Shown here: one piece after another, positions 3,766 to 58,359 of the stretch
How positions within the stretch are numbered: position 1 is the first letter of the stretch
How the letters are laid out: each line of letters begins with the position of its first letter
NCBI GenBank assembly: GCA_016124975.1
Contig: WGMP01000028.1
Span: 52,046-116,045, forward strand
Source: Phycisphaera sp.
GTDB lineage: Bacteria > Planctomycetota > Phycisphaerae > Phycisphaerales > SM1A02
DNA length: 64,000 nucleotides
Direction of reading: 5' to 3'
Position numbers and translations under genes: made by a program
Notes under the pieces: generated by a model
The model's input: only the letters and a program-made list of their open reading frames with translations
Databases searched by the model: none
What the model was told of the DNA's origin: nothing

Positions 3766-3889
3766 GGAGCCATCGAGGACGGCCAGGCGACCGTCGGCTC
3801 GGACCGGGACGCTTATGGCTGCTGCGGTCAAGCCCTGACCAGGTTCGCGACCAGCCCGCCCGCCGGGCCCGGCCGTCCTCGATGGCTCC
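3766..3889 (-). ncRNA. ffs: Signal recognition particle RNA (4.5S type)
   Basis: A 19-bp perfect terminal stem (3766-3784 with 3871-3889) closes a molecule of about 124 nt. Near the apex the minus strand reads GGTCAGGGC then TGAC-type loop then GCAGCAGCC, matching the conserved domain IV of bacterial SRP RNA (GGUCAGG on one side, AGCAGCC on the other). The length between these marks equals that of E. coli 4.5S RNA. The tetraloop appears to be UGAC (URRC class) instead of GGAA. The RNA binds Ffh to target membrane proteins. It sits 57 bp upstream of dnaX, as in Bacillus. Confidence 0.88.
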
Positions 3890-37185: not shown

Positions 37186-37419
37186 GCGCATCGATCACAC
37201 CGCGCATCCCAGGCGGGACTCGGATTCACTCCGAGGCCCGACCGCCAGAGGGAGCCGCCGCACGCGCATCGATCACGCAGCGCACCCCAGGCGGGACTCG
37301 GATTCACTCCGAGGCCCGACCGCCAGAGGGAGCCGCCGCACGCGCATCGATCACGCAGCGCACCCCAGGCGGGACTCGGATTCACTCCGAGGCCCGACCG
37401 CCAGAGGGAGCCGCCGCAG
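37186..37419. repeat. 78-bp tandem repeat, three copies
   Basis: Three copies start at 37186, 37264 and 37342. Copies two and three are essentially identical and copy one differs at a few bases. Each copy holds a hairpin (CTCGGA / TCCGAG, loop TTCAC) inside a weaker GGCGG / CCGCC stem. The last copy runs into the palindromic repeat that provides the stop codon of the decarboxylase gene. It is outside any credible gene. Confidence 0.9.
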
Positions 37420-37428
37420 CGGCGACCG

Positions 37429-38400
37429 CTAAAAATTCGGCGTCGGAGCCCTGAACTGCCGCATGTCGATCGACTTGAAGTATGCGATCGTGCGCGCGAG
37501 GCCCTCGCGCAGCGGGATCTTCGGCTCCCATCCGAGCGTGGCGCGCGCAAGCGTGATGTCGGGCTTGCGCTGCAGCGGGTCGTCGGCGGGAAGCGGGCGC
37601 GACTTCACGATCTGCGACGCGCTGCCCGAGAGCTCGACCGTCATCTCCGCCAGCTCGCGGATCGTGAACTCGCCGGGATTTCCGAGGTTCACGGGCCCGG
37701 TCACCGCATCGGGCGCGTCCATCAGCGCCAGGAACCCGTCGAGCAGGTCGTCGACGAAGCAGAACGAGCGCGTCTGCGTGCCTTCGCCGTAGATCGTGAT
37801 CGGCTCGCCGGCGAGCGCCTGGCGGATGAAGTTCGACACCACGCGCCCGTCGTAGGGATGCATGCGTGGGCCGTAGGTGTTGAAGATGCGCACGACGCGG
37901 ATCCTCACGCCGTTCTGGCGGTGGTAGTCGAAGCACAGCGTTTCCGCGGCGCGCTTTCCCTCGTCGTAGCAGGCGCGCGGGCCGATCGGGTTCACGTTGC
38001 CGCGATAGCTCTCGGGCTGCGGATGCACCTCGGGGTCGCCGTAGACCTCGCTCGTCGAGGCATGGAAGATCTTCGCGCCGACGCGCTTGGCGAGCCCGAG
38101 CATGTTCATCGCGCCGAGCACGCTCGTCTTCATCGTCTTGATCGGGTTGTACTGGTAGTGCCCCGGCGCCGCGGGGCACGCGAGGTTGTAGATCTCGTCG
38201 ACCTCGAGCATGATCGGCTCGGTCACATCGTGGCGGATGAACTCGAAGTTCTTCCGTCCGAGGAGGTGCTCGATGTTCGACTTCTGGCTCGTGAAGAGGT
38301 TGTCGAGGCAAATGACATCGTGCCCCATCGCCACGAGGCGGTCGCAGAGGTGTGATCCGAGGAAGCCGGCGCCGCCGGTGACGAGGATGCGCTTCACCAT
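37429..38400 (-). CDS. UDP-glucuronate decarboxylase (UDP-xylose synthase type)
   Basis: 323 residues. Extended SDR enzyme: NAD site GGAGFLGSH at 9-17, catalytic STSEVYG with Tyr145 and Lys149 (CYDEGK), and the [20 protein letters not shown] and [20 protein letters not shown] segments characteristic of UXS. It converts UDP-glucuronate to UDP-xylose for cell-surface polysaccharides. Its TAG stop belongs to the palindromic repeat shared with recR. Confidence 0.9.
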
Positions 38401-43208: not shown

Positions 43209-43233
43209 GCCCGCGCCCCCCTGCCCGAAGTCG

Positions 43234-43280
43234 CTCGGCCGCGCGGAGACACCCCTGAGTGCCCTCCGCGCGGCCGAGCC
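43234..43280. terminator. 15-bp hairpin between pstS and pstC
   Basis: A perfect 15-bp stem (43234-43248 with 43266-43280) and 17-nt loop begins 25 bp after the pstS stop. Such structures in binding-protein operons act as attenuators or 3' stabilisers, giving more pstS than transporter mRNA. No T-run follows. Confidence 0.6.
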
Positions 43281-54674: not shown

Positions 54675-57175
<2,501 letters not shown>

Positions 57176-57264
57176 GCCGACCGGGGCCGACCGTACTCGG
57201 ACGGGGCTCGCCCCGCGCCACCTTGGTGCGCTTCACGCTCGCCGGCGCCGCGCGCCCACGACGA

Positions 57265-57488
57265 CGGAGCGCAGCGAAGTCGGAGCGCTTGGCGATGGAG
57301 TCGCGTCATGTTTCGTGTGGCACTATCCCCTGCGAAGCAGGGGTAGTGGCGGCCACGCACGCAGGCTGGGCGCAAAGCCTGCAGTCCGAACGCCCAGTTT
57401 GCGTTCGATGCCGCCATCACCAGAGGTGATGCCACACGACACAGGTCGCGACGCCGCACGCAAACTGCTCGCGCTTCGCTGCGCTCCG
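57265..57488. repeat. Nested inverted-repeat element, 224 bp
   Basis: Perfect 15-bp outer arms (57265-57279 with 57474-57488) enclose 22-bp inner arms with 3 mismatches (57300-57321 with 57431-57452). Inside are four hairpins: 57321-57348 (CACTA/TAGTG with a CCCCTGC/GCAGGGG stem), about 57361-57382 (GCAGGC/GCCTGC), 57388-57406 (GAACGC/GCGTTC) and 57417-57430 (ATCACC/GGTGAT). Two loops are complementary (TGGGCG with CGCCCA). It fills the gap between the FmdB-like gene and the isomerase; it could be a structured RNA, a MITE or a dispersed palindrome. The rest of 57176-57528 has no gene. Confidence 0.7.
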
Positions 57489-57528
57489 CGCTCGGAACCG
57501 CTTCTGGACGCGCGTCCGGCGCACCCGC

Positions 57529-58359
57529 TCACGCCACGCCGTGGCGCGCGAGCATTTCGATCGCCGCTCGGATGTCGCCGATGCGGTCGTCGCCCGCCTC
57601 GCGCTCGACGGCGAGGCGCACGGTGGCTGGAACACGCGCGATCTCCGCGAGGAACGCGGGCCAGTCGACCGCACCCGTGCCCACGCGCACCTCGCTGCCC
57701 CACGTGCCCGCGGTCGCGGTCGGAAGCGCGTCCTTGACATGGACCTGCGCGATCCGCGGCGCAAGGCGCGCGACCGCGGCCACGGGGTCGCCCATCCCGT
57801 AGAGGATCATGTTCGCGGGGTCGAAGTTCACGCCGATCGTGTCGTCGCCGAGGAGGTCGAGCGCATGCGCGAGCGTCTCGGCCGACTCCTGGCCCGTCTC
57901 GAAGGCGATGCGCGCGCCGTTGTCCCTGAAGATCCGCGCGACCTCGCGGAGCCGCGCGAAGAGTTCGTCGCGCTGCGCGCCTTCCTCGTGCGGAATGAAC
58001 CCCGCGTGGAAGGTGACGAGCTTCACGCCATGCGCGCCCGCGAGGCGCGCGACCTCGGCCGCGCGCGCGCGCGTCGCCGGCCAGGTCGCGTCGGGCACGA
58101 CGCCGCCCGTCGCGCGAATCGTGTCGAGCGTCGAGTAATCCTCCCCGACCGTCTCGAGCATGCCGCTCGCGACCTCGATGCCGGCGTCGGCAAGCCGCGC
58201 GAAGGTCTCGGACCACGCGGCGGGCTGCTCTGCGATCGGCGTGAGCGCCAGTTGCACCGCGCACGCCCCCGTCGCCCGCACGCGATCGACGAGTTCCGCG
58301 GGATTTCCCGCGCGCAGGCTCCACGAACAGACGGCAACGGGCGATCGCGCAATCGGCAT
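57529..58359 (-). CDS. Sugar phosphate isomerase/epimerase (TIM barrel)
   Basis: 276 residues. AP-endonuclease-2-type TIM barrel with metal-site motifs: RIAFETGQESAETL, VNFDPANMILYG, AQVHVKD and the C-terminal AVEREAG segment. The family includes xylose-isomerase-like, hydroxypyruvate isomerase and inosose enzymes. The substrate cannot be named. Common and multi-copy in Planctomycetota. Divergent from the DUF4442 gene. Confidence 0.85.
   Translation of the reverse strand: MPIARSPVAVCSWSLRAGNPAELVDRVRATGACAVQLALTPIAEQPAAWSETFARLADAGIEVASGMLETVGEDYSTLDTIRATGGVVPDATWPATRARAAEVARLAGAHGVKLVTFHAGFIPHEEGAQRDELFARLREVARIFRDNGARIAFETGQESAETLAHALDLLGDDTIGVNFDPANMILYGMGDPVAAVARLAPRIAQVHVKDALPTATAGTWGSEVRVGTGAVDWPAFLAEIARVPATVRLAVEREAGDDRIGDIRAAIEMLARHGVA

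Follow-up and report, generated by a model that had tools for sequence, protein, structure and literature searches.

A palindrome of a Phycisphaera genome as a likely mobile REPIN set in 27-nt terminal inverted repeats

The window, i.e. the whole stretch of 64,000 nucleotides analysed here, carries a long nested palindrome between two convergent genes (Table 1). The locus raises the question of what kind of element this is and how it came to be there, for which a first-pass annotation had offered three answers: a structured non-coding RNA, a non-autonomous mobile element, or the palindromic class behind other repeats of the same stretch. On the evidence given below we consider it highly probable that the palindrome is a REPIN enclosed in 27-nt terminal inverted repeats, and likely a mobile, non-autonomous element that owes its spread to a RAYT (REP-associated tyrosine transposase). 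No published description of this element family was found in the titles and abstract openings of papers listed on REPs, RAYTs, MITEs or cruciforms in Planctomycetes, or on REPINs, BIMEs, REPtrons, TIRYTs and foldback elements.

Folding and extent of the window palindrome

The outer arms (57265-57279 and 57474-57488) are complementary at 15/15 positions and the inner arms (57300-57321 and 57431-57452) at 19/22, in agreement with the outer 15-bp and inner 22-bp arms described by the first-pass annotation. The minimum free energy (MFE) of folding was -145.9 kcal/mol for one strand and -145.0 for the other, compared to shuffled means of about -95.5 (z of -9.72 and -9.74 for the two strands, with 0/200 shuffles as stable on each strand), and with z around -9.7 on both strands the highly ordered fold claimed for this sequence was confirmed. 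As regards the four internal hairpins previously proposed, the side hairpins at 57321-57348 and 57415-57431 were recovered, and the supposed complementary loops (GGGCG and CGCCC) were found paired in the MFE structure as the two strands of a single central arm. A conserved kissing interaction between these loops finds no support, as they pair as one arm in the MFE structure and no other part of the family is less conserved than this arm. Compared to the limits first given (57265-57488), the conserved element proved to be slightly longer, spanning 57259-57494.

Rfam returned no family at the gathering score for the window palindrome, only three sub-threshold microRNA matches, and searches of phage and plasmid sequences gave only short matches, with E of 0.7 or worse. 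Three sites of the 64-kb window have perfect inverted 15-mers not more than 300 bp apart, one of them being the palindrome at 57265-57488. At 3766-3889 such 15-mers enclose a small SRP RNA (Rfam match at 3778-3874), whose ends they overlap, and the other pair, with a short spacing, is located at 43233-43279.

Table 1. Parts of the 236-nt element and neighbouring genes in the window
Feature	Position	Strand	Remarks
Whole element, 236 nt	57259..57494	+	Conservation drops outside these limits (41 copies, G002/G011); aligned copies
Left terminal inverted repeat CGACGACGGAGCGCAGCGAAGTCGGAG, 27 nt	57259..57285	+	Pairs with the right arm
Left variable linker	57286..57313	+	Copies little alike here save the last few bases
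Inner stem, left strand CGTGTGG	57314..57320	+	Ends in GTGG (57317-57320); invariant in 39 copies
Left REP hairpin CACTATCCCCTGCGAAGCAGGGGTAGTG	57321..57348	+	Single hairpin straight after GTGG in 39/39; 3-nt loop in all 39; compensatory changes
Variable central arm (REPIN spacer)	57349..57414	+	Place of the transposase gene in the long G002 version
Right REP hairpin CATCACCAGAGGTGATG, inverted relative to the left	57415..57431	-	Straight after minus-strand GTGG in 39/39
Inner stem, right strand CCACACG	57432..57438	-	Minus-strand GTGG at 57432-57435; invariant in 39 copies
Right variable linker	57439..57467	+	Alignment of copies
Right terminal inverted repeat CTCGCGCTTCGCTGCGCTCCGCGCTCG, 27 nt	57468..57494	+	Alignment and pairing over copies
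Upstream neighbour, small zinc-ribbon-like protein	56882..57175	+	3′ end toward the element; Pfam Zn_ribbon_8 28.3 bits, below the cut-off of 34.4
Downstream neighbour, xylose isomerase-like TIM barrel protein	57529..58359	-	3′ end toward the element; Pfam AP_endonuc_2 91.9 bits

The idea that the palindrome is the class behind other repeats of the window was based on the word ACCAGAGG, reported at 57419, 639 and 37400. Its exact occurrences are at 638, 25947 and 57419, all on the plus strand with none on the other strand, so that the first two reported positions stand, the second with a shift of one base, and the third does not; at 37400 the letters read GCCAGAGG and belong to another small repeat (37401-37429). 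This repeat, here R2, is a third small palindrome, CCAGAGG..GCCGCCGCAGCGGCGACCGC, with window copies at 637-667 (by eye) and 37401-37429, and its copies explain most of the recurrence of ACCAGAGG. R2 shares only mosaics with the 236-nt element, and the proposed common class is not supported, since the occurrence at 638 and the near-match at 37400 belong to this smaller repeat. A second palindromic repeat, R1 (GAGCGCTCGC-hairpin-GCTCGCTYTGG), was observed in the window's genome (G000) and in the genus genomes G002, G003, G005, G010 and G011 (e.g., L138-L155); it gave 28 matches in G000, 61 in G002, 40 in G011, 36 in G005 and 20 in G003, with 0 for the reversed pattern, and forms tandem and mosaic arrays in which compensatory hairpin variants can be seen by eye. 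The BIMEs of enterobacteria are composites, found between gene ends, of palindromic units and other kinds of repeat. The palindromic units described here are likewise joined with other repeat types between gene ends and, unlike in BIMEs, the neighbouring small repeats R1 and R2 come without an identified transposase.

Copies, compensatory changes and REP anatomy

In G000, 20 matches to the palindrome were obtained at E of 0.001 or better with both strands counted, and five of these, besides the window copy, cover the query in full or nearly so, with 78-86% identity. A covariance model of the core, built on 24 copies from a set of 34 that comprised neither four long-spacer copies nor the copy L029, and in which the odd left hairpin of copy L043 is poorly aligned, matched 5/16 genus genomes and gave no match in the 11 others. 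Counted by hand among the 100 matches listed, with partial copies included and bearing in mind that palindromes match the other strand too, the distinct places are 13 in G000, 31 in G002, 21 in G011, 3 in G006 and 2 in G004. Candidate copies in G009 and G012 were rejected, the matches being pieces of 26-35 nt that the covariance model did not recover.

More widely, a 23-base right-hairpin pattern with three free positions was run on 84,980 species genomes, a set that may leave out the window's own genome or close records, and the 49 stretches that matched all come from three MAGs of the window's genus named 'Planctomycetaceae bacterium': D1_MAG_00057 (G002) and E1_MAG_00063 (G011), both obtained from pond communities, and 49613_E25 (G004). 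Among 121 sampled genomes of the family, searched with stricter filters, only G000 matched, G002, G004, G006 and G011 evidently not having been drawn, and the viral contigs had no exact match to the right-hairpin pattern. The relatives are MAGs, all the genus genomes used are in many contigs and many copies lie near contig ends; L084 and L098, which have a common left half, may be chimeric.

For the comparison of copies we picked units by the inner stem CGTGTGGCA with one mismatch allowed, which gave 40 copies by regular expression and, after removal of L043 read on the other strand as a duplicate, an aligned set of 39. The unit is 235-301 nt long and begins and ends with CGAAGGCGGAGCGCAGCGAAGCCTGAG ... 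CTCGCGCTTCGCTTCGCTCCGCGCTCG, imperfect 27-nt terminal inverted repeats outside which conservation drops, except for a weak TTG-like preference at the left. From each end inward the order is terminal repeat, a variable linker of about 28 nt and the strand of the inner stem (CGTGTGG / CCACACG); the left hairpin, the variable centre and the right hairpin follow. Inner stem and hairpins are better conserved than the termini and the central arm is conserved least, strong sequence conservation being limited to the REP hairpins, the inner stem and the arms.

Changes on both sides of a pair were found at 14/59 pairs, in 32 cells of the alignment, a level reached by 0/500 shuffles, and slid controls had at most 6 pairs and 13 cells with two-sided changes. 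The 14 compensated pairs fall in the inner stem (5), the left hairpin (6), the outer arms (2) and the right hairpin (1), in which 5/7 pairs never vary. The fraction of paired cells was 87.1% versus 86.7% in the shuffles (8/500 reaching it), the 27-pair outer helix has standard pairs in 81.3% of cells, and the number of further pair types was not above the shuffles (360/500 reaching it). The first-pass annotation had named a single copy with no covariation and no expression as the outcome that would refute its reading, and what we found instead is a multicopy family with compensatory changes.

Some copies depart from this scheme. In L043 (G006) both hairpins have the same sequence, and the core is therefore a 28-nt perfect inverted repeat. 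The MFE structure of L049 (G002) as RNA, with z of -5.0, keeps the inner stem and the left hairpin and has the right hairpin broken. In L029 (1495-1795, contig G004:C87) the left stem and hairpin are tandemly duplicated, which looks, from the sequence, as if REP units could be copied within a REPIN.

These features were set beside the published definitions. The REP search rule, as excerpted from PMC6006769, asks for a hairpin preceded on its 5′ side, at a distance of 0-2 nt, by GTAG or GTGG; its basal stem is to be fully paired over 7-20 nt and to lead either into a loop of 2-5 nt or, past a bulge of 1-3 nt, into a further stem. A REPIN, in the excerpted part of PMC3116915, consists of two inverted REPs with a folding spacer. 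In 39/39 stem-picked copies a script found a single hairpin beginning 0 nt after GTGG on both sides, where GTGG is partly, and the hairpin less so, a product of selection, because the copies were picked by the stem that holds GTGG. The loop has 3 nt in 77/78 hairpins and 4 nt in 1/78; the basal stem has at least 7 pairs in 37/39 right and 31/39 left hairpins, and 8/39 left hairpins, with that of the window copy among them, have a bulge after 4-5 pairs, the window copy showing a basal stem of 5 pairs, the bulge and then 7 pairs. Two inverted REPs are thereby present with a spacer, all folding together as in a REPIN. The units are also dispersed, multicopy and extragenic, with the 13 and 31 places of G000 and G002, and none of the 39 copies is spanned by a gene called with our home-made caller. 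A cognate RAYT was found in G002, G004 and G006 and was not found in G000 and G011. The unit length and the 27-nt outer repeats differ from published REPINs, which are shorter and have no further terminal repeats; neither property is defining for REPINs, and they are the reason to treat this element as a variant.

The closest parallel is provided by the REPINs of Pseudomonas fluorescens SBW25, which, as far as the excerpted account goes (PMC3116915), have in common with the present element the inverted REPs, conserved outer ends, a less conserved folding spacer, compensatory changes, an extragenic location and the tie to a specific RAYT. In the SBW25 GI doublet of the same account 71 bp lie between the first residues of the two 16-mers, compared to the unit of 235-301 nt described here. 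Unlike the SBW25 REPINs of that source, which occur in hundreds of copies, the present element is found in tens, has an additional 27-nt inverted repeat and linker outside each REP and, in one genome, holds a RAYT gene between its two REPs.

Insertion sites and gene context

Sites with and without the element were found in close relatives. At the sites of L049, L086 and L063 it is present in G002 and absent at the matching G011 sites, at that of L046 it is present in G011 and missing in G002, and neither G005 nor G003 has the element at the place that matches L085, a filled site of G011. The empty sites are embedded in mosaics made of other repeats, and the joints are therefore not clean. We infer from this presence and absence at matching sites, as read from the assemblies, that the element is likely mobile.

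Target duplications, which the first-pass annotation had suggested looking for at the copies, gave no signal in the 36/39 copies that had enough flank: the mean longest flank match was 3.5 versus 3.61 after shuffling, and 155/200 shuffles were at least as high. A lack of target duplication is expected for Y1 enzymes. It bears also on the reading of the family as MITEs belonging to a classical insertion sequence of the DDE type, whose transposase would bind the 27-nt repeats and for which the hairpins would be incidental. The terminal inverted repeats with their fairly sharp ends and the presence/absence at matching sites agree with such a MITE, which we nevertheless hold to be very improbable, given that the 36 copies show no signal of target-site duplication, that the best conserved parts are the inner stem and the hairpins and not the termini, that the genes beside the arms are Y1 (see below), and that among the matches listed no exact inverted arm pair 0.5-3 kb apart was present, variants of the arm lying beyond the reach of the pattern used.

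The gene context was derived from a home-made codon model that missed the window gene at 57529-58359, with the window copy miscalled as tandem, and that, for 25/39 copies, called no gene within 700 bp on one side or on both. By these calls the 3′ end of a gene points toward the element on 41/52 neighbour sides, and the copies with both neighbours called (n = 14) are divided into 11 convergent, 3 tandem and 0 divergent arrangements. In copies common to G002 and G011, 23/1,400 element sites differ versus 124/1,691 flank sites, as measured on six of seven pairs (one gave no copy) with best-matching copies chosen and gaps left out, and this lower divergence of the element could reflect constraint, recent exchange or the bias of that choice.

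Both the 3′-end bias and the low divergence would suit a functional RNA element, namely a transcribed multi-branch structure that ends or protects mRNAs from both sides and for which mobility is only history. We think this unlikely, however, as the central arm and the linkers vary widely among copies, no Rfam family was matched at the gathering score, insertions sparing gene 5′ ends would yield an equal bias, and copies are absent at matching sites of a close relative and from 11/16 genus genomes.

A RAYT transposase in the spacer position

The remark of the first-pass annotation that no transposase is present is correct for the window copy, and in a relative the spacer position was found to be occupied by a transposase gene. 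In G002 (contig C144), searching for the outer arm by pattern revealed two arms in the same orientation 766 bp apart, and between the two halves there is an intact open frame, read on the other strand and 196 codons long from stop to stop. The order at this locus is left half, frame and right hairpin with stem, after which come a right arm in degraded form and a further, partial element. This gene-inside arrangement was seen once, in G002, with the right terminal repeat degraded and the right half about 250 bp from the contig end of a short-read MAG.

The G002 protein, of 167 aa, scored 83.0 bits with the NCBIfam model REP_Tyr_transpos (NF047646), above the cut-off of 80, and its homologues in G004 and G006 scored 80.4 (above) and 75.4 (below), respectively; with Pfam Y1_Tnp the G002 protein reached 19.8 bits, below the cut-off of 23. 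Its best match by sequence among solved structures is 4er8, TnpAREP with a REP hairpin (E 0.0025), which is also the best PDB match found by Foldseek for the AlphaFold model (pLDDT 86.6; E 2.2e-9, TM 0.69). In the alignment with 4er8 the protein keeps the HUH motif (NHVH) and a tyrosine, Y125; the catalytic residue of TnpAREP is Tyr115.

The nearest relative of this protein in the genus (G004:C87, 63% identity) is encoded 86 bp from an element, and the next one (G006:C455, 58%) lies between element arms, at a distance of 20 nt from one and 91 nt from the other. Further genus homologues have 45-46% identity (two in G000 and one in G004) and the rest 37% or less, so that homologues of at least 45% occur in 4/5 element-bearing genomes and in 0/11 others. 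The exception is G011 (84% complete), with many copies and no RAYT match at all; in G000 (97.6% complete) no close RAYT was found, only the homologues at 45-46% and more distant ones. G002, G004 and G006 have one RAYT copy each at close identity.

Among 5.8 billion proteins, 365 RAYT homologues were found, 14 of the 120 listed having at least 56% identity. Residues encoded by the element were recognised in three of these 14 (P0003, P0009 and P0013) and in 0/106 of the other listed proteins: in P0003 they derive from a half-element upstream of the gene, and in P0009 and P0013, the latter close by eye to the G006 protein, the translated element arm, PKAERS(E/G)A, stands at the C-terminus or close to it.

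A first search with Pfam Y1 gave 28 matches in 13/16 genus genomes, the G002:C144 RAYT not among them, and scanning of these 28 loci for the element and for R1 and R2 found only stray short words. Five Y1 loci were also searched for repeats, with GTGCC..GGCAC-type copies found at L103, L104 and L105, another repeat at L120 and none at L102. The RAYT genes of L103 (copies at 1333-1386 and 2086-2139), L104 (1192-1253 and 2027-2088) and L105 (1192-1247 and 2016-2071) lie between copies of this different repeat, and one genus therefore holds several RAYT-repeat pairs. At L187 (G000:C14:13604-14095) a RAYT homologue of 46% identity has a CCACCAC..GTGGTGGCACCCATTTTGGCTGTCGACGGCGG repeat on either flank, which makes one more such pair.

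The transposase-bearing version also bears on the proposal of a structured non-coding RNA. An independent gene for such an RNA would agree with the strong and partly covarying structure, and is hardly credible to us beside the equal stability of both strands, the variable centre, the many dispersed copies, the version with a transposase and the lack of an Rfam family at the gathering score; with no such Rfam match and no conservation of the centre, the proposal is not needed. The alternative of a non-autonomous mobile element is supported by the dispersed copies, the presence/absence at matching sites, the terminal inverted repeats and the transposase-bearing version in a relative.

For a REPIN spread by a RAYT, the following course is likely, by analogy with TnpAREP and IS608. 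One strand, exposed in replication or transcription, would fold into both REP hairpins; the RAYT would bind GTGG and the hairpin at each end in single-stranded DNA and, by Y1 chemistry, would nick and rejoin this DNA and insert a copy, gene-less copies presumably being moved in trans. The insertions that survive would be those downstream of genes, and the spacer would be free to vary so long as folding is kept, which fits the poor conservation of the central arm. Read-through transcripts from either side would fold and, by analogy with other REPs, probably act as bidirectional 3′-end structures of mRNAs. As no close RAYT was found in the 97.6% complete G000, the window copy is probably now immobile or dependent on a diverged RAYT.

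Two known systems have a tyrosine transposase gene within comparable ends. In TIRtrons, or TIRYT genes, as described in the excerpted part of PMC3733652, a tyrosine transposase gene has a long inverted repeat at either end and, as here, these terminal repeats also make up families of repeats; the same excerpt mentions composite repeats of P. putida 607 and P. fluorescens 4255, some of which combine degenerate REP units with unrelated stem-loops. Unlike in that account, the TIRtron motif GGGGWSAS occurs in the terminal 60 nt of 0/39 copies, and the abundant form is here the whole gene-less unit with both halves. Like the IS200/IS605 elements (IS608 and ISDra2, as excerpted from PMC6006769), the G002 locus has a subterminal hairpin at each end and, between them, a Y1 transposase of the same fold class, although the enzyme is nearer to TnpAREP (4er8) than to the TnpA of IS608 or ISDra2. 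Also unlike IS200/IS605, there is a single RAYT copy at close identity per genome in G002, G004 and G006.

What is new here compared to known REPINs is that the REP ends are nested in outer repeats and that a transposase gene occupies the spacer position. To our knowledge, it is open whether RAYTs ever carry themselves. A tentative and rather doubtful extension of our reading is that the family bridges IS200-type transposons and domesticated RAYT/REPIN systems, the gene-bearing and gene-less forms being interchangeable states of one self-mobile single-strand transposon, whose same two ends (outer repeat and GTGG hairpin) would carry the transposase gene in one form and, in the other, a folded spacer that evolves freely. 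The abstract of PMC8266576 calls the spread of REP sequences poorly understood. For this question the family described here makes a clean system: its copies number a few dozen, sites with and without the element can be compared between two close relatives, and the small transposase gene lies within the element in one species and next to the same arms in others. With the REP tetranucleotide recognised, an odd foldback element of an uncultured planctomycete can be accounted for by a known class of enzyme.
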